This document shows, one piece after another, positions 462 to 18,200 of a stretch of DNA of 64,000 nt (positions within the stretch are counted from its first letter, which is position 1; each line of letters begins with the position of its first letter). The notes under the pieces were generated by a model, which was not told where the DNA came from, made no database searches, and saw only the letters and a program-made list of their open reading frames with translations. The translations under genes and the position numbers were made by a program. The stretch lies in NCBI RefSeq assembly GCF_000430665.1, contig NZ_AUML01000006.1, positions 1 to 64,000 on the forward strand, given 5' to 3'. The stretch comes from Aquimarina muelleri DSM 19832. GTDB lineage: Bacteria > Bacteroidota > Bacteroidia > Flavobacteriales > Flavobacteriaceae.

Positions 462-1724
462 TTACTTCTCTTTAATAGCTTTATCTATATTACCTGCTAA
501 GTACATGTGGTCGCTAGCAGAATTTTTTCGCAATACATTTGTCATTAAACACACCATATATTTTGTACCATCAGGGTGCTCTATAATCGCCACAGAATTC
601 ATGTAATTCGACACATTACCTTTATACTTGCCGCACTCTTCGCCTTTAGAGCGGTCACATTTATACAAGCTTCCAGATTTAAAATAAACTGCAGCTTCTC
701 TTAATTGTGGTGCTTGTGCATACCGTATCCGTCTGTCGGTCATGTACATTAATCTCTTAATTTCGAGGCTCGAATTTTCGTCTACTATTTTTCCTTGTTC
801 CAGTTGTAGCATCCATTTCATTACTCCCAAAGGAGATCCTATGCTTCCTCCTTTATCCCCTACATATTGGTTTGCTCCTTTTGTAAAAAAACTACCCAAG
901 CGCCATTCATCCGCAGTTATCCCTAAATCTCTAAGCGGTAGATTGACTACATCATTACCCAAATCTGTTAACTCTTTTTTTGGAGTCTCTTTAAAATACG
1001 TGTCTGTTTCTTCTTGTGTCAATAAAGGATATTTATCTTTAAAAGCAGCCATTAAAAGAGCCTCTCTCCATACTACATTTGCCGCCCCATTATTGCTTAC
1101 CGATAACATATGGTCTATCCATTCGTATAACGTAAAAACATCACTGGCTACAACTTGTCGTTTTATGAGTTTATTGGTTTCGATATTAAAAACAGGAACG
1201 GTATGTTCATCTGTTAATGCCCAATTACCTGCTTTTAAAGATTTGTTTTTTAATAGCTCTATTCGTTTGTCCCAAGAATCTGGATATATTTTTTCTAGTT
1301 GTACAAATAATGCGGTAACCACAGCTAGTTTACCTACGCTGCCTGGTTGATATCCTCTGGTTTCATTTTGTTGTGCATATCGCAAAGAGTCTGCGCAAGT
1401 AATATCCAGAATGGTTACCGAATAGCTTTTATCTAATCTGGGAAACAGAGCATTTATTTTTTTCTGAAGCCCTGCATCTTCTACCAAAATACTTTTAGTA
1501 CGATCTTGTTTTCGCAAAAGCAGATGTAATGTAATATCGTTTATAGATTTAAAAGCTCCTAGCGGGAGTCCTGCATCGGGAAGATCCCCAGCAACAGAAA
1601 GTTGTAATCTTTTTAGCCTTTTGATACCAGTAGACGCATATCCATCTATAGGATAATGATTGGGTATTGTAAATGCTGTACAAATAAAAACGACAGTTAT
1701 TAATACGATTAATTTAGTTTTCAT
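462..1724 (-). CDS. Secreted penicillin-binding-protein/beta-lactamase-like serine hydrolase
   Basis: This 420-residue protein has an N-terminal hydrophobic signal (residues about 1-20), so it is exported. The three motifs of the serine DD-peptidase/beta-lactamase fold are visible: S-V-G-K at 129-132 (SxxK), S-N-N at 210-212 (SxN) and K-S-G at 349-351 (KTG-like). Domain length fits a class A-like fold. There is no large transpeptidase companion domain, so it is more likely a hydrolase than a cell-wall transpeptidase; antibiotic resistance is not implied. Its start lies 3 bases past the stop of the upstream secreted dikinase gene, so the two are surely co-transcribed. The substrate is unknown. 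Confidence 0.75.
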   Translation of the reverse strand: MKTKLIVLITVVFICTAFTIPNHYPIDGYASTGIKRLKRLQLSVAGDLPDAGLPLGAFKSINDITLHLLLRKQDRTKSILVEDAGLQKKINALFPRLDKSYSVTILDITCADSLRYAQQNETRGYQPGSVGKLAVVTALFVQLEKIYPDSWDKRIELLKNKSLKAGNWALTDEHTVPVFNIETNKLIKRQVVASDVFTLYEWIDHMLSVSNNGAANVVWREALLMAAFKDKYPLLTQEETDTYFKETPKKELTDLGNDVVNLPLRDLGITADEWRLGSFFTKGANQYVGDKGGSIGSPLGVMKWMLQLEQGKIVDENSSLEIKRLMYMTDRRIRYAQAPQLREAAVYFKSGSLYKCDRSKGEECGKYKGNVSNYMNSVAIIEHPDGTKYMVCLMTNVLRKNSASDHMYLAGNIDKAIKEK

Positions 1725-1727
1725 TTT

Positions 1728-4640
1728 TTATAGTGGTGTTGAAAGTGCTATTTCTTTTTTAGTGTTAATTTTTGGGGTTATAGATTCCAGATACTCAGAT
1801 CCCAATGCTTTTTTGTTTTCTACAAAAGGACGAATCTGAAAAAGCCACAACTTATTTTCTTTAAAGCCAAGCTCTACATCATACGCTCCTTTGTAATTGG
1901 ATGTTGTTTTTTTGGCAAGAGTTTTTCGTATCTCAGATGCTAAAGTTTTAATTTGATCTATATTATTTGCATTAAGTATAGCTTTTTCAAAAGTTGCTAT
2001 TTTTTTTCCTGTACCTCCTGTAGCTGGTAATGTATTGTGATATGCCTCGCGTGCAGGAGAAATTAGTTCATAATCCCCGTTTTCTTTAATTAAATAGGAT
2101 TCTGCTGCCTGACCATCTACAGCTCCGCCTGCTCCCCTACTAAATGCAATGGTTAAATCCTGTTCGTTGCCCGAGGATATACCTTTGGTAATAAGTACCC
2201 CAGAACAATCTACATCTACAGTAGGAATAACTAGTATAGACGGAAAAACATTTTCAGGATTCAGTAAATATTTTTGTCTCCATTTAAAACTACGTTCTGT
2301 ATATGGCGACGCCCACACATCTTTGATTCCTTGAATAATTTTATCTTTTTCTAAGGTGTTAAAAATAGTGAGGTTTAGCCCTGCTCCAGTAAAATCTTTA
2401 AGATCTTCCATATTAGTATCACTGCGTAAAAAAACAGGAACACTACCAATAGGTTTACCAAAAACAGAGGTAAATGAGTTTACTATTTCTGTTACAAATT
2501 TTGGTTTTAATGGCATTATTTTAATCGCAGCTCTTAGAGTTTCTAATTGCTCTAATTGAAACTTCTCAATTTCATTTTCTGCCATACCTTGTTCTCTCTT
2601 ATTATCTGTTTCTATAAACATGGTTGTTAAAAATTGCCAATATGAGATGTTTTGATTTGGCATAGTTTGGTTCATGTGTTCTCTAAATATCCCAAAAGGA
2701 ATCACAAAACCTTCTACTACATTATCCGGAAACATTTCTTTTAATTGCCCTAAATTTGCTGCTTTTGGCCCACAAAGTTTACCTGAGTCTTTTGCATTTA
2801 CAGCTCTTAAGTTTACAATGTTTTTTTGATCTAAACGAATATCTTGTACTGGTACTTCTATTTTATCTTCTTTACGAACTTTTTTAGCAAAAAGTGCTTT
2901 TTCATCTGCACTCATCATAGATTCTTCTTTGATAATCACTGTTCCTTTATTAGACACCGCATAAAACACTTTTTTACCTTGAAAAGCTTTTAACTCTTCT
3001 AGGTTTTCATTAGATAATGCCGCGTTTGGAATCCCCAGATTACGAGCCAACAACTGTACGTGCGATACTAGGTTACCTTCTGCCACTGTGGCAATACCTG
3101 CAACTGGTTTTAAGTCTGAAGGAGCCCGCTCAAAAACATAAATTTTATCTCCGGTTACCTCTACTTCTTCTGGAGAACCACTGTGAACTATTAGTTCTCC
3201 AAAAGCATATCCTGGGTTTAATCCTCGTATAGTACTCTGATTAGTAATAGTCAAAACTTTATTATTTAAAGAGGATTCTTTAGCAATAAAACTTCCTAGT
3301 TCTCCAACAGATTTTCCTAATTGTAAAGCTATCGATGATCGAATTCTATCATCTATAAAACTATATGCTTTAGGCTCAAAACTGGTATAGGTTTGTACTA
3401 CATCATGATATTCTGATTTTACCATTGCAGAACTCCATTCTACGACACCTCTGGCAATTTCCAGCTTTTTTGTTAATTCACTTATAGATAACTGATCTTG
3501 TTTTTCTAATACAAGCAATGCTTCTATTTTTTGCCATTCCCATAACTCTATACTACCATTTCCTGCACTAGCCATAGCCAGAGCTTTTATTTTATCTAAT
3601 TGTTCCCCAACTGTAGTTGCCGTCCATAATGTTGCTTGTTTATAAATAAAACTTTCTAGTTCATTTGCTATATCCAATAATAACAACCTCTGAGAGGCAT
3701 TTTTTTCGCTAACAATTTCCTTTCTAATAGTAAAGAACATCTTGGCACTTTCTGCGGTAAGCGTTGCAGATATCTCGTTATCTGTATTGTTCTTAACAAA
3801 AATTTTAAGCGTATTGGTTAAGGTACCACTTGTAGATAATGAATTTATTTTTTTGTTAAGGCTTTTAAGGTTAATTGGTTTATGAAATTTTTGCATGGTC
3901 AATATCAGCTCATCGATCTTTTTAGATATATCTCCAACAAGTTTTGTGCTGTTTTCTTTTTTAAATTGTATTGTTTTTTCGATATCTGTACTCTCTGGAT
4001 TGCTATGTATTTTAACTCGCAAATCCATAAATTTTGGATATTGATCAGAAATCACTTTGGATTGTACCCGCATTAATTGTGAAACATCATCATCGCCTTT
4101 GTGTGGAATATCTTTTAACGATTGTAATACTAGATAATATTTTTTTTCTAAAACATTATCTTTACTCAACAACCATTTATAAAATTTTATGCCCCAAGCT
4201 TCTTCATCTTCGATTTGTATAGCCCCTCTATAAAACTGCCCTTTTTGATTTACCCAACCATCATCAATACGAGCTAAATATTTACCTAACTGATATTGTT
4301 TTAAGCGCGAATGGTTTTTTGATTCATCCCAAAAATCATTTTTATCGGTATAGGATAAAATTTGTCCAAGAAAAACATGATTGTTTTTTGCTAATACCTC
4401 TACATCTTCTTTATATGTAGCATGTTGAACTCCACCTACAGAATCAGGGCAAGGGTCTTTTGGTTGTCTAATCGTACCATCATCACAAAACCATCGAATA
4501 CTTTTATATGGCCCGCGAATATCATTTTTATATTTTTCGACTTGACTCTCTATTGTTTTGTTGCTTAATGCAGTTTGGGAATACCCGTAACCAAACATTA
4601 ATAAACATATTACAACAAAAAGAGATATTGTTTTTTTCAT
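1728..4640 (-). CDS. Secreted PEP-synthase-like dikinase with phosphohistidine domain before the ATP-binding domain
   Basis: The 970-residue protein begins with a clear Sec signal peptide (residues 1-21). Residues 25-470 are unrecognised and largely helical. A PEP-utilising mobile (phosphohistidine) domain follows at about 475-575, with LVSHVQLLARNLGIP carrying the likely phospho-acceptor His527. A PPDK-type ATP-grasp domain lies at about 620-940, with GPKAANLGQLK (624-634), FLRSDTNMEDL (738-748), ERSFKWR (782-788) and LFQIRP (933-938). In PEP synthase and PPDK the ATP domain comes first; the order here resembles plant glucan, water dikinase, and there is no C-terminal PEP-binding barrel. Export is odd for an ATP-using enzyme. 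It heads a two-gene operon, preceded by the two-part promoter motif at 4661-4691. Confidence 0.7.
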   Translation of the reverse strand: MKKTISLFVVICLLMFGYGYSQTALSNKTIESQVEKYKNDIRGPYKSIRWFCDDGTIRQPKDPCPDSVGGVQHATYKEDVEVLAKNNHVFLGQILSYTDKNDFWDESKNHSRLKQYQLGKYLARIDDGWVNQKGQFYRGAIQIEDEEAWGIKFYKWLLSKDNVLEKKYYLVLQSLKDIPHKGDDDVSQLMRVQSKVISDQYPKFMDLRVKIHSNPESTDIEKTIQFKKENSTKLVGDISKKIDELILTMQKFHKPINLKSLNKKINSLSTSGTLTNTLKIFVKNNTDNEISATLTAESAKMFFTIRKEIVSEKNASQRLLLLDIANELESFIYKQATLWTATTVGEQLDKIKALAMASAGNGSIELWEWQKIEALLVLEKQDQLSISELTKKLEIARGVVEWSSAMVKSEYHDVVQTYTSFEPKAYSFIDDRIRSSIALQLGKSVGELGSFIAKESSLNNKVLTITNQSTIRGLNPGYAFGELIVHSGSPEEVEVTGDKIYVFERAPSDLKPVAGIATVAEGNLVSHVQLLARNLGIPNAALSNENLEELKAFQGKKVFYAVSNKGTVIIKEESMMSADEKALFAKKVRKEDKIEVPVQDIRLDQKNIVNLRAVNAKDSGKLCGPKAANLGQLKEMFPDNVVEGFVIPFGIFREHMNQTMPNQNISYWQFLTTMFIETDNKREQGMAENEIEKFQLEQLETLRAAIKIMPLKPKFVTEIVNSFTSVFGKPIGSVPVFLRSDTNMEDLKDFTGAGLNLTIFNTLEKDKIIQGIKDVWASPYTERSFKWRQKYLLNPENVFPSILVIPTVDVDCSGVLITKGISSGNEQDLTIAFSRGAGGAVDGQAAESYLIKENGDYELISPAREAYHNTLPATGGTGKKIATFEKAILNANNIDQIKTLASEIRKTLAKKTTSNYKGAYDVELGFKENKLWLFQIRPFVENKKALGSEYLESITPKINTKKEIALSTPL

Positions 4641-4660: not shown

Positions 4661-4691
4661 ATTAGGACACTTTATCTTTTTTAAAGTCACA
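4661..4691 (-). promoter_or_regulatory. Candidate ECF-type promoter, copy A (dikinase operon)
   Basis: On the minus strand TGTGACTT (4691-4684) is followed after 15 bases by GTCCTAAT (4668-4661), 20 bases before the ATG of the dikinase gene. The same pair occurs in the divergent promoter at 4793-4822, upstream of 12309, and in a weaker form at 8443-8473. A -35/-10 pair with a GTC core in the -10 fits ECF sigma promoters in general; the cognate factor is not in the window. Confidence 0.5.
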
Positions 4692-4792
4692 TATTTTTTT
4701 TGAAAAGGTATTAAGGTATTATCTGTAAAATTAAAAACTATTATACTAGTTTATTGTTTACAATTTTAAATATTAATTATTTTTTTATAGGA

Positions 4793-4822
4793 TGTGACTT
4801 AAATACTTTTTTGTGTCCTAAT
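4793..4822 (+). promoter_or_regulatory. Candidate ECF-type promoter, copy B (gene at 4839)
   Basis: TGTGACTT (4793-4800) is followed after 14 bases by GTCCTAAT (4815-4822), 16 bases before the ATG at 4839. Both half-elements are identical to those of copy A, although the spacer sequence and the flanks differ. The motif points outward in both directions from the same intergenic region, so the two divergent units are probably regulated together. Confidence 0.5.
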
Positions 4823-4838
4823 AATAAATTAGAATTTA

Positions 4839-5537
4839 ATGAAAACACATTTTAAGGTTGACCTTATATCTTTTAAAACAATAAATGAGCTGCCAAATAA
4901 CTGGACAGCTAATGATTACACAAAGCTTTTAGAGGCTTTGGATTATGGAGACACAACAAATATATTGAAAGAAGAGCTAAAAGATCTGTGTTTACTATCC
5001 TTATCAGACAATGAGCCCGAAGATGCTGCTTTACTAGTTTTGGAATATATTTTTAAAGAAAAACTAAACCAAGGGCAATTAGATAATTTATCTCACGAAA
5101 TGCAAGAAGAAAAAATGTGGGAAGAGTATGCTGATTTATCTATGCACGAAGATTTTTTTAATGCAACTCAGATATTATACGAAGCATATAACGGAAAATT
5201 TCCTCATCCAGAAGCGGTAAATTTTAAGGTTAGATTAACTGTTGATAACAATAATGATCTCGAATTGTTTAAGCACAACCCAGAAGCATTACTAATTAAG
5301 ATATTAATAAAAGGAATGCCTGATAATACTTTGATAAAAAGATTGTTTAAAGAACAATTAACCAAAGTTGATTTTAAAGAAGCAAAAGATATTTTATGGC
5401 AGTTAAAAATAGAAGAAACAAAAGATAAATCTATGGTTTTTGAAGTAATTACTTCTTCATATTGGTTTAAAGATCTTAAATATGTAAGCCCTTTTGAAGC
5501 TATTTTTGATAATGAAATTTTAATTGCACAACATTAA
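4839..5537 (+). CDS. Conserved hypothetical protein, 232 residues
   Basis: I do not recognise this family. The protein is acidic, soluble, without signal peptide or membrane segment, and appears mostly helical. It contains EPEDAALLVLEYIF near residues 60-72 and an acidic central part. It is divergent from the secreted dikinase operon and shares its two-part promoter motif, 16 bases upstream of the ATG. The next gene (5615) follows after 77 bases and the GNAT-nitrilase gene after that, so it may lead a rightward unit. A role linked to the dikinase is an inference from shared promoter sequence only. Confidence 0.6.
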   Translation: MKTHFKVDLISFKTINELPNNWTANDYTKLLEALDYGDTTNILKEELKDLCLLSLSDNEPEDAALLVLEYIFKEKLNQGQLDNLSHEMQEEKMWEEYADLSMHEDFFNATQILYEAYNGKFPHPEAVNFKVRLTVDNNNDLELFKHNPEALLIKILIKGMPDNTLIKRLFKEQLTKVDFKEAKDILWQLKIEETKDKSMVFEVITSSYWFKDLKYVSPFEAIFDNEILIAQH

Positions 5538-5614
5538 ATAATTTAGATAATTTACTATTAAATTAGTATCTAAAAACAACCAATGATTTTTTGATTCACA
5601 AAAAATTGTAAACG

Positions 5615-5860
5615 ATGAAAAAAAAGAATAAAAAAAGAAAATCACATACCAATACCTCTGATGTTGTTCCAATATCTGAAGTGAAAAAACGATTTAAACA
5701 TATAATTCCGCGATTTCCAAATAACAACTCCGAGACAAATCTTCAAACTAAAAATGAAATGTTTTATGGGTTCAAAGAATTTATAGAGGATTATAAATTA
5801 GCCATATCATTTATTGGGCTAACCCTAATTCTTATATTTTTAGCATTAGTATCAAAATAG
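5615..5860 (+). CDS. Small membrane protein with Lys-rich N-terminus
   Basis: The 81-residue product starts with a very basic stretch (MKKKNKKRKSHT) and ends with one hydrophobic helix (about residues 59-79) followed by SK. It is therefore probably a tail-anchored or single-pass inner-membrane protein with its charged part in the cytoplasm. The gene lies between the unknown 232-residue protein and the GNAT-nitrilase fusion, same strand, with short gaps of 77 and 35 bases. I know of no functional assignment. Confidence 0.5.
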   Translation: MKKKNKKRKSHTNTSDVVPISEVKKRFKHIIPRFPNNNSETNLQTKNEMFYGFKEFIEDYKLAISFIGLTLILIFLALVSK

Positions 5861-5895
5861 AAAGAAAAACGCTTAAAAAGCACCTAATTATTATA

Positions 5896-7428
5896 ATGGA
5901 TATACAAAATATAGAGAATATCGAACTCAAGTATCTTGACTTAAAAGATTATCAAGAATTAAAAGAAGCTATGATACAGGCATACCAAACTATGCCAAAT
6001 GCATACTGGAAAGAAAGCCAAATAGAATCTTTAATTAATAAATTTCCTGAAGGGCAAATTGTTATCAAAGTTAATAATCAAATAGCAGGGTGTGCTTTAT
6101 CTCTTATTCTGGATTATGACCAATTTGACAACAGCCACACCTATAAAGATATTACAGGAAATTACACATTTAGTACACACACAAATACTGGAGATATACT
6201 TTATGGTATCGATGTTTTTATTAAACCAGAGTTTAGAGGTTTACGTTTAGGACGAAGATTGTATGATTATAGAAAAGAGTTATGTGAGAAACTAAACCTA
6301 AGAGGTATAGCTTTTGGTGGCAGAATTCCTGGATATCATAAATTCTCAGAAACGTTAAGTCCAAAAGAATATATAGAAAAAGTAAAACGAAAAGAGATCA
6401 ATGATCCTGTTTTAAATTTTCAGATATCTAATGATTTTCATCCTGCAAAGATATTAAAGGGGTATCTAGAAGGAGATGATGCATCAAATGATTTTGCTGT
6501 ACTTTTAGAATGGGATAACATATATTATGAAAAACCAACCAAAAAGGCTGCTACCAAAAAGAAAATAATCCGTTTAGGATTAATACAATGGCAAATGCGA
6601 GCTTATGAAAATCTAGACGAGCTACTACAGCAAGCAGAATATTTTATCGATGCTGTTGCAGGATATCGATCTGATTTTGCTTTATTTCCAGAATTTTTTA
6701 ATGCTCCGTTAATGGCTGAAAACAATCATTTATCAGAGCCTGATGCCATACGAGAATTAGCAAAACATACCGAAGCTATAATTAAAAAATTCTCTGAGTT
6801 CTCTATTTCATATAACATCAACATTATCTCTGGTAGTATGCCAGAAATTAGAAATGATCGATTATATAATGTAGGGTATCTATGCAAGCGTGATGGTACG
6901 GTAGAGAGATATGAAAAATTGCATGTCACGCCAGATGAAGCTAAAGTCTGGGGAATGCAAGGTGGTAACGAATTAAAAGCTTTTGATACAGATTGCGGAA
7001 AAATAGGAATCTTAATATGTTATGATTCTGAATTTCCTGAATTAAGTCGTTTACTAGCCGATGAGGGAATGGATATTTTATTTATACCATTTTTAACAGA
7101 TACGCAAAATGGATACTCTAGAGTACGAAATTGTGCACAAGCAAGAGCCATAGAAAACGAATGTTATGTTGCTATTGCTGGTAGTGTAGGTAATCTACCT
7201 AATGTACATAATATGGATATCCAGTTTGCACAATCTATGGTGTTTACTCCTTGTGATTTTTCTTTCCCTACTAATGGGATTAAAGCGGAAGCTACACCAA
7301 ATACCGAAATGATTTTAATTGCGGATGTAGATATAGATCTTTTAAGAGAGTTAAACCAATTTGGAGCGGTTAGAAACCTAAAGGACAGAAGAATAGATAT
7401 TTTTGATTTAAAAAAGAAAGTTAAATAA
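5896..7428 (+). CDS. Bifunctional GNAT acetyltransferase / carbon-nitrogen hydrolase
   Basis: This 510-residue protein joins two enzymes. Residues about 10-205 are a GNAT N-acetyltransferase with the acetyl-CoA loop RGLRLGRRL (114-122). Residues about 225-505 are a nitrilase-superfamily amidase with the Glu-Lys-Cys triad visible: Glu266 in FPEFF, Lys341 in YEKLHV and Cys375 in ILICYDSEFPEL. Fusions of this kind are known in Bacteroidota and other phyla, but the substrate is not established to my knowledge. All catalytic residues are intact, so both halves are probably active. It starts 35 bases after the small membrane protein gene and may be co-transcribed with it. Confidence 0.85.
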   Translation: MDIQNIENIELKYLDLKDYQELKEAMIQAYQTMPNAYWKESQIESLINKFPEGQIVIKVNNQIAGCALSLILDYDQFDNSHTYKDITGNYTFSTHTNTGDILYGIDVFIKPEFRGLRLGRRLYDYRKELCEKLNLRGIAFGGRIPGYHKFSETLSPKEYIEKVKRKEINDPVLNFQISNDFHPAKILKGYLEGDDASNDFAVLLEWDNIYYEKPTKKAATKKKIIRLGLIQWQMRAYENLDELLQQAEYFIDAVAGYRSDFALFPEFFNAPLMAENNHLSEPDAIRELAKHTEAIIKKFSEFSISYNINIISGSMPEIRNDRLYNVGYLCKRDGTVERYEKLHVTPDEAKVWGMQGGNELKAFDTDCGKIGILICYDSEFPELSRLLADEGMDILFIPFLTDTQNGYSRVRNCAQARAIENECYVAIAGSVGNLPNVHNMDIQFAQSMVFTPCDFSFPTNGIKAEATPNTEMILIADVDIDLLRELNQFGAVRNLKDRRIDIFDLKKKVK

Positions 7429-7493
7429 AAAATAGAGCTCTGTAGAATCGTTGCCTTCTCTATCTTTTAATTGATCAAAACCATATAAACATA

Positions 7494-8426
7494 ATGATTT
7501 GGACAGGATTGGTAATACTGGTTATTATCTTATTGATGATAGATCTTTTACTGCTTCATAAAAAAGGAAAGCCTATTACCCATAAAAAAGTAGCAATAGA
7601 AACTTTGTTATGGGTAATGATTGCTGGGGCATTTTCTTTTGTTATCTATTGGATTTATAACAACCAACTCATAGATAATCGTAATCAATTATTACCATCT
7701 GAAGCAGTTATAAAATACATTACTGGCTATTTGATAGAATTATCCCTTAGTGTAGATAATTTATTTGTTATTGCCATGATATTTTCATCCTTTAAAATCC
7801 CAATAAAATATCAACATAAAGTTTTATTTTGGGGTATTCTTGGAGCTATTTTTTTTAGGGCATTAATGATTTGGGCCGGAGTAATTTTAATTCATAAATT
7901 AAGCTGGATCACCTATGTTTTTGGTGCTTTTTTATTGTTTACTGCTTTTAAAATGTTAGTAAAAGAAGAAGATCAAACAAAACCTTCTAAATTTAAAAAC
8001 TTTTTATACAAACATCTTAAAGTAAGTAATACACTTAATGGAGAAAATTTTTGGGTTATCGAAAATGGAGTAAAGATGGTTACTCCTTTAATGGTAGCCC
8101 TTATAATGATAGAACTAACCGATTTACTTTTTGCAGTAGACAGCATCCCTGCAATACTTGCTGTTACTACAGACCCTTTTTTAGTGTTTAGCTCTAATAT
8201 ATTTGCTGTTTTAGGATTGCGATCTATGTATTTCTTTCTGGCCAACATGCTCGAAAAGTTTCATTATCTTAAATACAGTGTTTTTGCAATATTAGTATTT
8301 GTTTCTCTTAAACTTATTACTCTTCATTTTTATAAGTTTCCAGAATGGTTCTCTCTAACTTTTATCGCTGTATGTTTATTACTAGGCATACTAGTATCTT
8401 TATCTGCTAAACTAAAAAATAAATAA
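7494..8426 (+). CDS. TerC/Alx family integral membrane protein
   Basis: The 310-residue protein has about nine hydrophobic helices. It carries the TerC-family signatures with acidic residues inside membrane segments: ELSLSVDNLFVIAMIF near residue 85 and ELTDLLFAVDSIPAIL near 210. Alx/TerC proteins are linked to manganese export and to helping metal loading of exported enzymes. No manganese-sensing yybP-ykoY-type leader is evident in the 65 bases upstream. A hairpin with a bulge (about 8445-8470) lies just after the stop, but without a T-run. Confidence 0.85.
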   Translation: MIWTGLVILVIILLMIDLLLLHKKGKPITHKKVAIETLLWVMIAGAFSFVIYWIYNNQLIDNRNQLLPSEAVIKYITGYLIELSLSVDNLFVIAMIFSSFKIPIKYQHKVLFWGILGAIFFRALMIWAGVILIHKLSWITYVFGAFLLFTAFKMLVKEEDQTKPSKFKNFLYKHLKVSNTLNGENFWVIENGVKMVTPLMVALIMIELTDLLFAVDSIPAILAVTTDPFLVFSSNIFAVLGLRSMYFFLANMLEKFHYLKYSVFAILVFVSLKLITLHFYKFPEWFSLTFIAVCLLLGILVSLSAKLKNK

Positions 8427-8442
8427 AATTTTAAAAATAAAA

Positions 8443-8473
8443 AGTGACCTGAATAAAATTATTGGGTCATAAT
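8443..8473 (+). promoter_or_regulatory. Weaker copy D of the two-part promoter motif (gene at 8532)
   Basis: AGTGACCT (8443-8450) is followed after exactly 15 bases by GTCATAAT (8466-8473), 58 bases before the ATG at 8532. It matches copies A and B at 6 of 8 and 7 of 8 positions. A caution is that the same bases can fold (TGACC...GGTCA with an AATAA/TTATT inner stem), so this may instead be a hairpin behind terC. Confidence 0.3.
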
Positions 8474-8531
8474 GTACATCAAATAATAGTAAATAAATTA
8501 AAAGTTTTATTCACCTTAATTTTTAAAAAAA

Positions 8532-8897
8532 ATGAAAAATATAAAAAATGTATATGTATTAATAATTACTCTTTTATTTATATCATACACTGGTATTGCA
8601 CAAGAAGAAAATGAAGAAACATCTTTAGAGGTGCAAACCATAAAAGGAGTATTTGATGGTTCTGAGGGAGGATCCTATAGTTTTAAATATAAAAATGAAG
8701 AAGGAGATAGTGATGTTATTTTCTTTGATAATATTAAACCCGAAGTATTAAAAGCATATAACTTAAATGATAAAAAATTAATAGGAAAAACGTTTGAAAT
8801 TACTTTCGATACTTTAGAAGAAGAAGAAATAGACGATGATGGGGATTCTCAATATAATAGAATTAGAACAATTACTTTATTAAAAGAAGTGAAGTAA
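8532..8897 (+). CDS. Small secreted protein, paralogue of the product of 11950-12309
   Basis: The 121-residue product has a signal peptide ending near residue 23 (YTGIAQ) and a mature acidic beta-rich domain of about 95 residues. It shares a pattern with the 119-residue protein encoded at 11950-12309: a K-G-V-F / K-V-T-Y start, a Y-D/N-L segment, then K..IG..F.ITF/Y, and a C-terminal hydrophobic strand. The two are likely paralogues of one undescribed family. The gene stands alone and is followed by a strong terminator at 8932. Periplasmic or outer-membrane location is inferred from the signal peptide. Confidence 0.65.
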   Translation: MKNIKNVYVLIITLLFISYTGIAQEENEETSLEVQTIKGVFDGSEGGSYSFKYKNEEGDSDVIFFDNIKPEVLKAYNLNDKKLIGKTFEITFDTLEEEEIDDDGDSQYNRIRTITLLKEVK

Positions 8898-8931
8898 GGC
8901 ATTATTATATAGAATGTATAACTTAAATACC

Positions 8932-8970
8932 AAGGGTAAAACTTTAAAAAAGTTTTACCCTTAATTTTTT
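8932..8970 (+). terminator. Rho-independent terminator
   Basis: AAGGGTAAAACTTT and its exact complement form a long stem around an A-rich loop, followed by a run of eight T residues. It ends the rightward transcript of the small secreted protein gene and lies before the convergent corA gene. Confidence 0.85.
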
Positions 8971-9050
8971 TTAATATCATAAAGAACTAATTATGGGAGT
9001 TAAGGTCTTCTAAACTACCATTGGTGATGTATAATAGTTTACAAATGGAA

Positions 9051-10118
9051 TTACAACCATTTTTTTCTTTTAAAATAATACAACAAACCAATAAATACTG
9101 CTATCATTATTCCCCAAAGGATATGATATCCATATTTAAATTTTAGCTCTGGTATATTTTCGAAATTCATACCGTAGATACCTGCAAGAAAAGTTAATGG
9201 GATAAAAATCGAAGCCATAATAGTAAGAACCTTCATAACTTCGTTCATTTTATTACTAATAGTAGTCATATACATATCCATTAATCCCCAAGTCATCTCT
9301 CGATAAATTTCGATATTTTCGGATACCTGTATAATGTGGTCGTATAAATCTCTTAAATAAAACTGTGTCTTTTCTGTAATTAAGTGATGTTCGCTTTTTT
9401 CTATGCGATTTACCACTTCTCGTAAAGGAAAAACAGCTCTTCTAATCTTTAAAACTTCTCTTTTAAGGCTTTGAATATCATACGTTATATCATCATTTGG
9501 TTTTTCTTCAAACAAATTATCTTCTAATTCTTCTATTTTATCTCCCATTGCTTCTATAAGGTTAAAATAGTTATCTACAGCAGCATCCATTAACGCATAT
9601 AATAAATAATCTGATCCCATAGATCGAACTCTTCCTTTTCCTAATCGAATACGGTTTCTGATAGAATCAAAAACATCTCCATCTGATTCTTGAAAAGATA
9701 TCACATAAGTATTACCTAACACAAAACTTATGTGCTCTATGCATAATTTTTCATCTTTATCAAAATAAAGCATTTTTAAAACTACAAAGAGATATTTTTC
9801 ATACTCATCGATTTTTGGTCTTTGGTCTGTATTAGCAATATCTTCTAATATTAAAGGATGCAGATCATAATGCTCTCCTATTTTTTCAATTGCCTCTGTG
9901 TGATTAAGTCCATTAACATTAATCCATGTAATAGGTTCTGAATCTGAATATTTAAATGCTTCTTCAATACTATTTAGCTCTTTTTCTTCAAAAAAATCTT
10001 CACTATAATCAAATACCTCAATATATAAATCCCCAGAAGTTTTATCTCCTGTATACACAACTGTTCCTGGTGCTAGACCGAATTGTTTTTCTGCTGGTGA
10101 AGAAGCAGTATTTTTCAT
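9051..10118 (-). CDS. corA: CorA-family magnesium/cobalt channel
   Basis: The 355-residue protein has a large cytoplasmic N-terminal domain and two C-terminal membrane helices (about 298-318 and 330-348). The family signature Gly-Met-Asn is present in FLAGIYGMNFENIPEL (G316-N318). CorA forms pentamers that carry Mg2+, and in some members Co2+ or Ni2+, into the cytoplasm. The C-terminus is basic (KRKKWL), as is usual. It is divergent from the MscS-type channel gene with about 80 bases between the starts. Confidence 0.93.
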   Translation of the reverse strand: MKNTASSPAEKQFGLAPGTVVYTGDKTSGDLYIEVFDYSEDFFEEKELNSIEEAFKYSDSEPITWINVNGLNHTEAIEKIGEHYDLHPLILEDIANTDQRPKIDEYEKYLFVVLKMLYFDKDEKLCIEHISFVLGNTYVISFQESDGDVFDSIRNRIRLGKGRVRSMGSDYLLYALMDAAVDNYFNLIEAMGDKIEELEDNLFEEKPNDDITYDIQSLKREVLKIRRAVFPLREVVNRIEKSEHHLITEKTQFYLRDLYDHIIQVSENIEIYREMTWGLMDMYMTTISNKMNEVMKVLTIMASIFIPLTFLAGIYGMNFENIPELKFKYGYHILWGIMIAVFIGLLYYFKRKKWL

Positions 10119-10198
10119 CTTTTATTTTTTTCTAAAAAACACAATGTAGTATAATTAAAATATCTTTACAAAATAACCGTTACGAAAAAACAATAATT

Positions 10199-11074
10199 AT
10201 GGATAAAATTACTGCAGTTTTTGATTCTCCAATTTTTATAAATATAGTTTCTGTTCTTTTATTGTTTACAGTTATATATATATCTATAAAAATGCTACAT
10301 AAAGGTGCTTTTAAACTGGTTAATGATAATGCCTCTAAGTATAAGCTTAAAAAGTTTATTACTTTTTTTGGGTATCTCATTTTTGTTTTTGGTGTTTTAT
10401 TAATTTTTAATACCAAGCTTTCTGGTATTGGCACAGCATTAGGAGTTGCTGGTGCAGGTATTGCTTTTGCATTACAAGAGGTAATAGTAAGCGTAGCTGG
10501 ATATGTCACTGTTTTTTCTAGTAATTTTTATCGCGTAGGAGATCGGGTAAAACTAGGAGGTATTAAAGGAGATGTAATCGATATTGGTATTTTACGAACT
10601 ACTCTTATGGAAATTGGAGATTGGGTAAATGGAGATCTTTATAACGGTAAAATGGTTAGAGTGGCTAATAGTTTTGTTTTTAAAGAACCTGTTTATAATT
10701 ATTCTGGAGATTTTCCTTTTTTATGGGATGAAATATACATACCCATAAAAACTAATGGAGATTATGCATATGCAAAAAGAGTTTTTACAAAGATTTTAAA
10801 TGATGAGGTAGGTGATTTTGCAAACTCTTCTCAAATATCTTGGGATAAAATGATTGGTAAATATAATATAGAAAATGCCCGTGTACAACCAATGATAACA
10901 ATGTCTTTCGATCAAAACTGGATTACATTTACTCTTCGATATGTTGTTGATTTTAAATCTAGAAGGGGCACAAAATCTGTCCTTTTTGATAAAATACTTA
11001 CGACCATACAAAACTCTAATGGAAAAATTGAAGTTGCTTCGTCTTCTTTTGAAGTTACTGCTTTCCCTAAGTAG
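10199..11074 (+). CDS. MscS-family mechanosensitive ion channel
   Basis: The 291-residue protein has membrane helices at about 10-30, 55-75 and 80-105. The last is the Gly/Ala-rich pore helix (VAGAGIAFALQEVI), followed by the beta domain (YRVGDRVKLGG, about residues 111-121). This is the core architecture of small-conductance mechanosensitive channels, which release solutes on hypo-osmotic shock. It is close in size to E. coli MscS, with no large extra domain. It pairs divergently with corA. Confidence 0.9.
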   Translation: MDKITAVFDSPIFINIVSVLLLFTVIYISIKMLHKGAFKLVNDNASKYKLKKFITFFGYLIFVFGVLLIFNTKLSGIGTALGVAGAGIAFALQEVIVSVAGYVTVFSSNFYRVGDRVKLGGIKGDVIDIGILRTTLMEIGDWVNGDLYNGKMVRVANSFVFKEPVYNYSGDFPFLWDEIYIPIKTNGDYAYAKRVFTKILNDEVGDFANSSQISWDKMIGKYNIENARVQPMITMSFDQNWITFTLRYVVDFKSRRGTKSVLFDKILTTIQNSNGKIEVASSSFEVTAFPK

Positions 11075-11270
11075 AAATTTTAAAAACCTGATACTGTTAC
11101 CTCTATATAAATATTTTAGAGATAAAAAAGCACTTAGAAATAAATGTTTACTAATATAACATTCAAACCTTTTTGATCAGAATTAAAAAATAATTAGTTT
11201 TTATAATAGTAGTAATATTCAAACCTTAAATACATTTAATTCAAGATTAAAAATTTAAAATTTCATACAC

Positions 11271-11807
11271 TTAATACCCAAAAAGGTCTATTTTTATTTT
11301 TTGATCTCTAGATCTCTCTTTTGGTTTGATTTTTTTAAAAATATGATCTTTGTCTATTTTTTTTATGTCTGATAATTTATTTAGCATTGTTACAGCATCT
11401 TCAATACTAGTATCAAACATTCGTAGTACTTGTTTATCAAAATTTGGGCTATTTTTAGCTTCCATACGAATGATTTGTAATTGATATAGTAGTTTTTTTA
11501 TCATATGATTGCTTTCATCAAGCATAGATAGATATGCTTTCTTTTTTTGCAAATAGATTTTTCTTTTAAATGACTCTACTAAATTTAAAATCATAAAAAA
11601 TAAAAAGCAGAAAATCCAAATAAAAAAAGCTTCATCTAATCCATATTTTTTCGTAAAACTTAAATAGATATTTACATTATTTATTATATCCCAATTAATT
11701 AATAAAGTATAAGTATACCCTGTTATCGCTATTATTAGTCCTATCAAAATATACTTATATTTGTTTATTTTTTCCACAACAATTTCTCTCCTTATCTTCA
11801 TCATCAT
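11271..11807 (-). CDS. Membrane protein with C-terminal coiled coil, unknown
   Basis: I do not recognise the family. The 178-residue product has two hydrophobic helices (about 18-38 and 60-80) and then a charged helical segment (about 85-150) that looks like a coiled coil. The C-terminus is basic, with KPKERSRDQKIKID. Two in-frame ATGs at the start (MMMK) leave the exact start uncertain by one or two codons. It lies alone between the MscS gene and the small secreted protein gene, with no obvious partner. Confidence 0.5.
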   Translation of the reverse strand: MMMKIRREIVVEKINKYKYILIGLIIAITGYTYTLLINWDIINNVNIYLSFTKKYGLDEAFFIWIFCFLFFMILNLVESFKRKIYLQKKKAYLSMLDESNHMIKKLLYQLQIIRMEAKNSPNFDKQVLRMFDTSIEDAVTMLNKLSDIKKIDKDHIFKKIKPKERSRDQKIKIDLFGY

Positions 11808-11949
11808 AATTATTGTTTATTAATATTAGAACATTTCTAAGTAAAATAAAATACCTTTTTTACATATCATCGATTATATAAAAATATTGGTGATCTACTA
11901 GACAGAGGCCCGAATAGAACCTCTATATCAACATTTCAACTATAAGAAT

Positions 11950-12309
11950 CTAATTTTTGACTACTGGTTTTTCTATTTTATTAATATCAATAAGGATTAG
12001 TCTTTGTTTATATTTTTTTACTTCTGCATCCTCTTTAATATCATTATTTTGAACTTCTATAGGATCTACTTCATAAGTAATCGTAAATACACCTCCAATA
12101 TGTTCTTTTTCACTTAAATCGTACTTAGAAACAGCTTTTTTACTAACAAAAGTAAACTCTAATATCTTTCCTGTTTCTTTGTCTGTAAAATAATATGCTT
12201 TATCTGATTGTCCGCTATAAGTAACTTTTACTTCTATAATATCATTATTAATTATGTTAGTAAAACTTGTAACTAATAAAACCGTTAAAATTAAAAGAAT
12301 TCTTTTCAT
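11950..12309 (-). CDS. Small secreted protein, paralogue of the product of 8532-8897
   Basis: The 119-residue product has a short signal sequence (about 1-18) and a mature domain matching the product of 8532-8897 in order and spacing: a T-Y-S-G strand, a KYDLSEKEHIGGVFTITYE segment and a hydrophobic C-terminal strand LILIDI. Its promoter region carries the two-part motif shared with the dikinase operon. It is a single gene. Function is unknown; sequence divergence from its paralogue is high, so the duplication is old or the genes arrived separately. Confidence 0.6.
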   Translation of the reverse strand: MKRILLILTVLLVTSFTNIINNDIIEVKVTYSGQSDKAYYFTDKETGKILEFTFVSKKAVSKYDLSEKEHIGGVFTITYEVDPIEVQNNDIKEDAEVKKYKQRLILIDINKIEKPVVKN

Positions 12310-12336
12310 GTAAAAATAATTTTGTTGTTATACTTA

Positions 12337-12367
12337 TTTTAGACACATCTTTATATATAAAGTCACA
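12337..12367 (-). promoter_or_regulatory. Candidate ECF-type promoter, copy C (small secreted protein)
   Basis: On the minus strand TGTGACTT (12367-12360) is followed after 15 bases by GTCTAAAA (12344-12337), 27 bases before the ATG at 12309. The first half is identical to copies A and B; the second matches at the GTC core and the AA. The extended first half, ATATGTGACTTTA, is also shared with copy A. Confidence 0.45.
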
Positions 12368-15252: not shown

Positions 15253-18200
15253 CTATTTTTTTTGATAATGTACTTTATATCTCCAATAGGATAAAGCTCC
15301 CAAAATCACCCAAAATAATATAAAATAGTATGCTCCTACAGGAGTAACAGCTCTATCACCACTAGCATAAGAATGTAATCCTTTTAAATAAAAGTTTACT
15401 CCAAAATAAGTCATCATAATAGAAAGAACCGCGAAAATAGACATTAAATTAAAAAACCATCTGCCACGTAATCCAGGAACTAATCGCATATGGATTACAA
15501 ATGCATATACCATAATACTTATTAATGCCCAAGTTTCTTTAGGATCCCACCCCCAATAACGTCCCCAACTTTCATTAGCCCACATACCTCCTAAAAAATT
15601 ACCTATAGTAAGCATTACTAATCCTATAGTAAGAGCCATTTCATTAATAATAGTTATTTCTTTAATATTAAGATCCATACGTTTCTTATTAGACTCTGTT
15701 GTTAAGATCATTAATAATAAGGATAAAATTCCCAATATAGCACCTACAAAAAATGGCCCATAACTCCCTACAATAACAGATACATGTATGAGTACCCAAT
15801 AAGAATCTAATACTGGTTGTAAATTTGATATCGCAGGATCTGTCCAATTTTCATGTGCAAAAAACAAGATAATTGCCGCAACAAAAGTAGTTGCTGCAAT
15901 AGTTAAGTTACTTCTTTTACCAAAAGCTAATCCTATTGCCAAAGTCATCCATGCCACATAAATCATAGACTCATAAGCATCACTCCATGGTGCATGTCCA
16001 GAAACATACCAACGAACAATCAATCCAACAGTGTGCAGTATAAATAACAAAATGATTATCCCAATAGCACTGTTTATAAGACCTTTTATAATTTTAGAAT
16101 CTTTAAATATTCTAATAATTACAAAAATCATCATCAATAAACCTACTATACCATAATATTTATATAATGTTCTAAATATATCATATTTGTTTAATGCTAT
16201 CTCTGCTTGTATTTTTTTGTCTGAAGGCAACACTTCGCTTCCAAACTTTTTTTGAAAACTTTTTATACTTTCTACATATTGGTTAGGCTTACTATAATCT
16301 CCAGATTTTCTAGCCTCATGTAGGGATTGACGGTAAATAGGTATAATCTGTCGAGTATACACTGAATCCATACCACTAAACTTAAATTCATTTAGCTCTG
16401 GCATAGAAACCCATTTATTACCTTCATCTCCTGGTATCGGAAAAACCCTTAAAATCCCCCCTCCTAAAGCCTGATTAAGAAGATAAAATTTTTCATGTGT
16501 TTTAAGAAAATCTTTTTCAAAAGTACTTGGTGTATTTGTACTGCTGGCTTTTTCCAAATAAGGTGCTAGTTTATAAGATCCATCAGGTTCTACCAAATCA
16601 ATCAAAGATACTCTTCTTTCTGTTTTTGGGACTCCTAATATTTTACGAATACTATCATTTTCACGTTGAATCTCAATTAAAGGAACACTATACCATATAA
16701 ATGGATTTTCAACCATAGAAACAAATACCTGATCTGCATCTAAACCTTCATAAGTATCTTTTTTACTAAGTTTACGTAACAATTCGGAAGAAAAAGTATT
16801 AACAGGTTTCATTCTTCCTCTTTCATCTTGGATCACAATACTACCAAAATTAGCCGCATGCTCTTTAGGTACCACATTAGCCAAAATAACCGAATCGAGT
16901 TTTGCTTTACTTGGCAATGTTGAGACGTGATTAGTATGCTCTGATTGATTTTGTGCAAAAGAAAAACCAGAAATTAACAATACCAATATCATTGTTAATG
17001 CTTTCTTCTTTTTCTTTATTTTACTTAACATAATTTCTAAGTCTTTAAAACGAGATCCTTTAGCAAAAAGAATAAGCATTAATCCCAGATATAATAACAT
17101 ATATCCTGCATATGTAATCCAAGTACCCCATCGATCATGATTTACAGACAAAACCGTGCCTTTTTCATCAGGATCAAAAGAAGCCTGAAAAAACCGATAC
17201 CCCTTATGATCTAAAACATGATTCATATAAATATCATATGGTTTTGATGTGTTATTTTCTACAATGTCTACTTTACTTTTATATGATTTATATACATTTT
17301 CAGTACCCGGAAATTTTTCTGCAATAAAATCATTTAATTTTAGTGCAAAAGGTAATTCCATTTGTTTAGAACCATAATTAAAATACATCTCTAAACCTCC
17401 TAATGAGATTTTAGTCATATCATTATAATATCCTTTTCCTCCTAATAACTTAACCTCTTTGGTTTCTCCATTACTTGAAACATTAAAAATTAAAGCATCT
17501 TGCTGTCCTTTTCCTTTAACTTTTATAGGAGTAACATCATATTTTCCTTTAACCATAGGATCTGGAATTACAAATTGCATCCCAGCAGTTTGATACAAAG
17601 ATCGAAGCATTAAAGGTTGTAAACTATCTTTAAAGACCAATCCTTGAAATTGATCTGCCATTCTTAAAAAAGATCCTTCAAAAGGGGACTCTATAAAATA
17701 TTCATCCTTTTCATGAGTAATATTTATTGCTCCTTTTGTAGGTTTATTAAAGGCTATTAGTACATTATGTATATTAGAAACCTCTCCTTCTTTAAGAAAA
17801 TGATCATGTCTATCTCCATCTCCTGCTTCGACTATTTTAAGATAATTTTCTCCATCTTCTGTTTCTACTAACCCTATTTCCGCTCCTTGGATATAGTTTT
17901 TATATTCTATAGTTACAGGTTGTTTATTATAATCGGTATCAATTGTAAAGCTATTATTAGTAGCCTCTGCTAATTCTAAATGCTCAGATATTATACGACG
18001 ACGAGGCTGTCCATCAATTTCTCCATCTAAAAAAATCGTTAAATAGGTTTTTTCTGAAAGAAAATTAGCTGTAGTTTCTCCTTCTCTAATTGGCATAACC
18101 CCTTCATAACTAATATAACGAGTAACAAAAGCCCCTATAATTATTAAAATAAAAGATAAATGTATTAGTAGAGTAGGCCATTTTTCTTTCGTATATAATT

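Follow-up and report, generated by a model that had tools for sequence, protein, structure and literature searches.

Four copies of a two-part sequence motif, each facing a different gene, lie in a stretch of 64,000 nucleotides from Aquimarina muelleri DSM 19832 (contig NZ_AUML01000006.1, positions 1 to 64,000; the window, below), and the question they raise is which regulator reads them. All four match the extracytoplasmic function (ECF) sigma-type promoter GTGACTT-N15-GTGTCnnA. Judging from the sequence, they are very probably promoters of a single ECF sigma factor, ECF2, whose gene lies beyond the window on the host's contig C29; its tandem paralog ECF1 possibly takes part as well. The copies, with their scores on a matrix described below, are the following.

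4661..4691, minus strand: copy A, TGTGACTT-N15-GTCCTAAT, score 26.0; predicted promoter of the operon encoding the secreted dikinase and beta-lactamase-like proteins.
4793..4822, plus strand: copy B, TGTGACTT-N14-GTCCTAAT, score 27.5; predicted promoter of the gene at 4839.
8443..8473, plus strand: weak copy, AGTGACCT-N15-GTCATAAT, score 22.9; behind terC, predicted promoter of the secreted protein 8532.
12337..12367, minus strand: copy C, TGTGACTT-N15-GTCTAAAA, score 29.0; predicted promoter of the secreted protein 12309.

A check of the sequence confirmed the positions and orientations given in the preliminary description of this locus, with the next start codon 16-58 bases from each copy. 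The gap between the motif end and the ATG is 20 bases for the dikinase gene (4640, minus strand), 16 for 4839 (plus), 58 for 8532 (plus) and 27 for 12309 (minus). The genes concerned are listed here.

1728..4640, minus strand: secreted dikinase-domain protein of 970 amino acids, target of copy A; residues 622-946 form a C-terminal pyruvate phosphate dikinase ATP-binding domain (PF01326).
462..1724, minus strand: secreted class A beta-lactamase-like protein (PF13354), second gene of the dikinase operon.
4839..5537, plus strand: protein of 232 amino acids; target of copy B.
8532..8897, plus strand: secreted protein of 121 amino acids; target of the weak copy.
11950..12309, minus strand: secreted, beta-rich protein of 119 amino acids, a recurrent member of the regulon; target of copy C.

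The outcome of pattern scans depends on which letters are retained. Within the window, TGTGACTT-N13..17-GTCNTAA has two matches, with none in 100 shuffles, while the bare patterns are not above chance (13 matches with 10.6 expected for TGTGACTT-N15-GTC with two mismatches; 1 with 1.2 expected for TGTGACNT-N14-GTC with one mismatch). The preliminary description had predicted a genome-wide excess of the motif, and a scan with TGTGACNT-N13..16-GTC showed none (6 matches, 12 in the reversed control); taken alone, this loose test would have counted against the ECF idea. Of the six matches, three fall on window copies; another is a full-length copy on C29 whose position, about 2 kb from a tandem pair of ECF sigma genes, pointed to the sigma candidate. 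The genome-wide signal emerges when the letters after GTC are kept in the pattern: GTGACTT-N14..16-GTCNNAA yields 7 matches and no reversed ones, and GTGACYT-N14..16-GTCHHA, which includes the weak copy, 7 and 1. With GTGACNN-N14..16-GTCNWAA there are 8 matches and 7 in the control, seven of the eight belonging to the GTGACYT-N14..16-GTCHHA set and the eighth being a lone site on contig C37. The patterns combined give eight credible sites in the genome, four in the window and four on C29, and, as far as these patterns can see, the regulon is small and confined to two places on two contigs.

24573, 22071, 16627 and 7529 (GTGAC starts), all minus strand: C29 motif sites, the one at 7529 scoring just 18.3.

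The host genome (4.90 Mb in 100 contigs) contains 25 matches to Sigma70 region 2, 23 of them above the cut-off. Apart from the ECF pair on C29, none of the 25 sigma loci has a motif site scoring above 13.0 (about 1.5 kb on each side where the contig allows). The C29 locus, in coordinates of the extracted stretch L033, is organized as follows.

8799..9428, minus strand: open reading frame (ORF) of ECF1, in tandem with ECF2.
7945..8517, minus strand: ECF2, with a TTG start.
6895..7731, minus strand: MscS-type channel (PF05552 and PF00924).

Each of the two sigma genes is followed by a gene for a protein of about 55-60 amino acids, and the channel gene comes last. ECF2 has 190 amino acids and consists of Sigma70 regions 2 and 4 only (PF04542 and PF08281); it reaches 86.6 bits on TIGR02937 (cut-off 42.9), and the C29 sigma factor remains below the cut-off of NCBIfam NF058625 (sigma_PG0214; 75 vs 130). 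The motif is found 28 bases ahead of the TTG start of ECF2, as AGTGACTT-N15-GTCTTAA, beginning with AGTGAC like the weak copy of the window. Judged by its promoter, the sigma gene appears to be autoregulated. The preliminary description had suggested looking for a sigma/anti-sigma pair with the motif in its own promoter; the sigma half of such a pair is present here, and the protein of about 60 amino acids encoded next is a candidate for the other half. An ATG directly followed by a stop codon (ATGTAA) lies between the motif and the sigma gene (L033 8574-8517, minus strand) in a region with no ATG-started sigma frame, the frame starting with TTG in L033; the same ATGTAA occurs between motif and ECF gene in loci L139, L146 and L148, again with no ATG-started sigma frame in view. 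Translational damping of the sigma gene by this element is possible.

Relatives of the sigma gene were collected by scanning genome contigs with the ECF alignment; of the 576 encoding stretches, the 80 best were analyzed. These 80 come mostly from Flavobacteriaceae (Maribacter, Arenibacter, Flagellimonas, Zobellia, Polaribacter, Tenacibaculum, Winogradskyella), with some from Weeksellaceae, Cytophagales and others. The motif occurs within 200 bp upstream of the ECF gene in 52 of the 80 loci (40 in the GTC form, 12 in the GTTTC form) and the reversed patterns in none, and the remainder of these loci (2.9 Mb of strands) has 15 motif matches vs 1 reversed. An MscS gene is located at most 1.3 kb downstream in 74 of the 80 loci. 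The small protein was detected after the sigma gene by tblastn in 56 loci, and 77 have an ORF of 35-130 amino acids there (that of L228 is not such a protein), which in 31 of the 77 starts before the sigma stop codon ends. The protein of about 60 amino acids frequently begins with M-E-N-P-F-K and has no match in Pfam or NCBIfam. No hydrophobic span is visible in it by eye, unlike RseA, the protein that follows the E. coli sigma-E gene and has a membrane span. The cassette of sigma factor, small protein and channel is present in many flavobacteria. In nine loci from Cytophagales, Saprospiraceae and similar groups (L219, L221-L227, L229), the ECF relative is preceded by GTTACTT-N-GTC; moreover, at least the ECF relatives in L221 and L224 have a hydrophobic C-terminal stretch resembling a membrane tail.

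A promoter matrix was trained on 48 sites from 79 of the ECF loci (A. spongiae excluded), with a pattern that fixed GTGAC and GTC and permitted spacers of 14-16; the window itself had suggested this pattern, and the columns for GTGAC and GTC therefore carry no independent weight. Letters that were not imposed also recur: G two positions before GTC in 47 of the 48 sites, T one position before in 44 and A three positions after in all 48; the spacer is 15 in 43. Upstream regions of 53 of the 80 ECF genes, the same set that supplied the training sites, score at least 15. The layout is the same as that of the E. coli sigma-E type promoter (GGAACTT-N15-GTCNNA), with the 15-base spacer and the GTC core, but with GTGACTT in place of GGAACTT and with GTGTC before the A. 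In the window, the four copies take the top four places (29.0 for C, 27.5 for B, 26.0 for A and 22.9 for the weak copy), followed by a site scoring 12.5, and the best site among 20 simulated windows has 19.3. In 263 kb of strands from other hand-chosen stretches, only two sites score at least 15 and none at least 22. On these scores the weak copy is counted as a regulon promoter too. The ECF-type layout proposed earlier for the four copies is supported by the cross-genus matrix and by the same motif upstream of the sigma gene.

The sigma factor and the motif also co-occur among genomes. The pattern GTGACYT-N12..14-GTGTCNNA has 37 matches in 56 genomes; 34 of these (reversed control, 1) are in the nine genomes with at least two copies, and three (reversed control, 13) in the other 47, which have none or one. 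An ortholog of the ECF gene (E <= 1e-30) is found in exactly these nine genomes and in none of the 47 (Fisher p 1.3e-10, relatedness ignored). Earlier scans had already covered 36 of the 56 genomes, and six of the nine positives were in this part. The other 20 were new to the sigma search: three are positive (G027, G030, G032), each with at least two copies, and the 17 negative ones all have none or one. The surroundings were read for 27 of the 37 matches (without the host genome's own seven and three lacking a new locus). In sigma-bearing relatives, 23 of 24 sites are ahead of genes: 19 have an ATG-started ORF within 160 bases downstream, and four lie about 40 bases ahead of the ECF match with no ATG there, being assigned by coordinates; the remaining one is inside an opposite ORF. 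As for the three lone matches in sigma-less genomes, two fall within opposite ORFs, and the third lacks an ORF start in the 160 bases considered. Together with the matrix ranking, this co-occurrence upholds the assignment of copies A-C and the weak copy to one regulon.

Orthologs of the target genes were compared between genomes with and without the sigma factor. The unbiased sample consists of 25 relatives obtained by protein search with the 8532 protein, a site being a score of at least 15 within 300 bp upstream. The motif is present in four of the nine relatives from sigma-bearing genomes (8532 itself in the host genome G000, relatives in G012 and G014, and the 12309 ortholog of G004) vs none of the 16 from sigma-less genomes, where the best score is 12.6, in G023, perhaps a remnant. 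The 8532 orthologs of G012 and G014 have scores of 24.2 and 26.9. For the 12309 family, the motif was found in all seven sigma-bearing genomes looked at, six of them besides the host (scores 24.7-29.0), a biased count, since five were found solely through the motif, one is the window itself, and only that of G004 came from the protein search. The four sigma-less 12309 orthologs, all from the protein search (G017, G022, G023, G028), have no motif; three of them have TAnnTTTG, described as the housekeeping promoter consensus in PMC9723704, at -43 to -51, and the fourth has TAAATTTA at -32. None of the seven motif-bearing orthologs has TAnnTTTG within 150 bp. This distribution suggests, as far as upstream sequences can tell, a replacement of promoters at orthologous genes, in either direction. 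The dikinase/beta-lactamase-like gene pair is retained in the sigma-less G003, G022, G023 and G028, with neither the motif (a loose GTAAC...GTC in G023 scores 0.3) nor TAnnTTTG ahead of the dikinase ortholog.

Besides the result of the loose scan, the fixed matrix columns and the bias of the 12309 count, several observations weigh against the assignment of the motif to this sigma family. In sigma-bearing genomes, the motif is missing from five of the nine relatives of the secreted proteins; one of the five is the host's own closer paralog of the 8532 protein, on contig C13 (43% identity). The upstream regions of 27 of the 80 ECF genes score below 15: eight of these have the GTTTC variant, nine GTTACTT-N-GTC, two only the -35 half, and eight nothing. 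ECF1 of the host and the family ECF gene of G014 have no motif in their own promoters, and a search of the 19 kb downstream of the G014 gene gave no match to MscS or the small protein.

The last two genes bear on which of the tandem paralogs is the reader. It is less likely than not, though a real possibility, that ECF1 is the main one and ECF2 a target or amplifier. In the ECF tree (85 of 87 rows; L228 excluded by name and one other by the length filter), ECF1 forms one clade with the ECF factors of Arenibacter and G014 (fork support 100/98), all with motif-free promoters of their own, yet from genomes with motif sites, and in Arenibacter and G014 this is the known family ECF. The Arenibacter locus (L152 9896-12035) has the order ECF gene, small protein, motif, second small protein, MscS, i.e. 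the C29 layout minus ECF2. Moreover, ECF1 has a TAnnTTTG box at -120. However, the family ECF gene is itself the one with the motif-bearing promoter in 53 of the 80 loci, and ECF2 is the copy directly preceding the small protein and the channel.

As an alternative to a promoter, the preliminary description had named a direct-repeat operator (TGTGACT ... TGTCCT), which would serve a DNA-binding regulator. TGTGAC and TGTCC are indeed alike and about two helical turns apart, and a fixed spacer is also expected of a bipartite operator. Still, we consider an operator improbable, as across genera the sigma gene is itself preceded by the motif, and sigma and motif co-occur among genomes. An operator also needs a promoter beside it; a TAnnTTTG housekeeping promoter was sought for the four window genes and found within 150 bp upstream of none of them, as of none of the seven motif-bearing 12309 orthologs, vs three of the four sigma-less ones, while an adjoining promoter of another type could serve. 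There is hardly any probability left for a chance likeness of AT-rich upstream regions, with the weak copy a terminator hairpin of terC. The loose pattern being no commoner than its reversed control is in line with chance, but scores of 22.9-29.0 are not reached in the 20 simulated windows (19.3 at most), and the stricter pattern gives 7 matches vs 0 genome-wide. The weak copy does fold, to -9.4 kcal/mol, but not significantly (z -1.5); a T run is absent downstream, and the copy is missing from the output of the terminator scan.

If the promoter reading is accepted, the regulon comprises recurrent members and members seen in the host only. The ECF operon itself is recurrent, as is the 12309 protein, found in G000, G001, G002, G004, G012, G027 and G030; in G012 its gene is divergent from the sigma gene itself. 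NCBIfam gives a match to the 12309 protein below the cut-off only, and its AlphaFold model is mediocre (pLDDT 74) and beta-rich. The 8532 protein recurs behind the motif in the host genome, G012 and G014; neither it nor the 4839 protein has a match in Pfam or NCBIfam. A protein of about 279 amino acids was read behind the motif in G001, G002, G004, G027 and G030, and the copies of G004 and G030, which were compared, are 37-39% identical to DUF2807/GIN-domain proteins of Flaviramulus and Arenibacter, that of Arenibacter likewise being behind the motif. A peptide of about 43 amino acids, hydrophobic by eye, is found in G001, G002, G004, G030 and G032, directly behind the channel gene in the three checked (G001, G002, G004).

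Members seen in the host only are the dikinase/beta-lactamase-like operon, the 4839 gene, the operon behind the C29 site at 7529, which encodes a protein weakly resembling phosphate transporters together with a second beta-lactamase-like protein, and the ORF behind the site at 16627 (read in part). The 4839 gene has no match in the 55 other genomes; the ECF cluster of Flaviramulus (L177) contains a relative 62% identical, at a distance of 3.4 kb from the family ECF gene, and no motif was found ahead of this relative. The C29 site at 22071-22043 (minus strand; score 29.4) precedes a decayed DUF2807/GIN-domain remnant (L033 5991-5866, minus strand), after which about 800 bases contain no long ORF; relatives keep the intact protein behind the same motif. 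Secreted class A beta-lactamase-like proteins (PF13354) are encoded at 462-1724 in the window and at L136 5627-6523 (minus strand), each by the second gene of a pair with the motif ahead of the first. Between the 8532 and 12309 genes, a CorA-type transporter gene and another MscS-type gene, named from their translations, stand head to head (window 9051-11074), with no motif site scoring at least 13. In Pseudomonas, the CorA-like gene cmaX adjoins cmpX.

The closest known system is SigX-CfrX-CmpX of Pseudomonas aeruginosa (SigX belongs to ECF102), described in PMC8999054 and PMC7641640 as a mechanosensing complex with CfrX as a putative soluble anti-sigma factor and CmpX as a channel. In both systems the ECF gene neighbours genes for an MscS-type channel and a small soluble protein. 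In Pseudomonas, according to the same papers, the sigma factor has these two genes among its targets; here the motif precedes the operon in 52 of the 80 loci and in Arenibacter stands directly ahead of the small protein gene and MscS. Unlike Pseudomonas, where cfrX-cmpX is upstream of sigX, the present cassette, from another phylum, has the order sigma, small protein, channel. CfrX has 84 amino acids, the small protein here about 60, and the proteins are likened to SigX, CfrX and CmpX by their descriptions, not by sequence. The SigX promoter consensus is called not precisely defined in PMC7641640, whereas the consensus here is sharp.

Other ECF systems of Bacteroidota are more distant. The SM6 promoters of Flavobacterium psychrophilum, as presented in PMC9723704, are also an ECF-type set from Flavobacteriaceae that includes a sigma/anti-sigma operon among its targets, but they have a CGT -10 box, components of the type IX secretion system (T9SS) and Band-7 proteins as targets, and induction at low nutrient levels. 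Membership of the present motif in the SM6 class was considered and rejected: the -10 element is GTGTC/GGGTC, and the targets seen are the ECF cassette, DUF2807 proteins and small secreted proteins. Porphyromonas SigP/PorXY (PMC4800418) and SigH/ECF114 (PMC8999054, PMC12596196) are likewise ECF systems of Bacteroidota and differ by their T9SS and oxygen responses.

The circuit may thus be pictured as follows. The -35 element GTGACTT and the -10 element GTGTCnnA, with a spacer of 15 (14-16), would be read by the ECF sigma factor, and we infer that the C29 factor binds these promoters. The sigma gene would be read from the same promoter, and because of this the circuit would amplify itself. That gene begins a conserved cassette encoding the sigma factor, the soluble protein of about 60 amino acids and the MscS-type channel. 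By analogy with SigX-CfrX-CmpX, the small protein most likely keeps the sigma factor inactive as its anti-sigma factor, and membrane tension sensed by the channel would be the signal that frees it. The holoenzyme would then transcribe the cassette, genes of small secreted proteins and, in relatives, that of the DUF2807 protein, and here also the dikinase/beta-lactamase-like operon and the 4839 gene. The adjoining MscS channel makes the envelope-stress role proposed earlier plausible. A wider generalization can be offered only tentatively, its chances being somewhat below even: a mechanosensing module found throughout Bacteroidota, in which the soluble anti-sigma protein of about 60 amino acids hands the sigma factor to, or is cued by, the channel from the same operon, so that tension would switch on a small envelope regulon, and sigma-less species would run the surviving targets from a housekeeping promoter.

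The ECF regulon was recognized correctly from bare sequence, and its sigma factor is now located; the guess leads to what looks like a genuine and little-studied stress circuit. Systems of this kind are already known, and the sigma-small protein-MscS variant of Bacteroidota with its promoter is apparently undescribed: no description of the cassette and promoter was found in an open-licence collection of papers, and it may be listed as a group in the main ECF classification. According to PMC8999054, P. aeruginosa SigX is the one case studied so far of a sigma factor controlled by a mechanosensing complex. The cassette looks like a second one, in another phylum and with a sharp promoter by which its targets can be named, and is a clean system for asking if a sigma factor can be gated by an ion channel. 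Otherwise nameless secreted proteins gain a regulator, and the comparison with sigma-less genomes hints that promoters of orthologous genes have been replaced.

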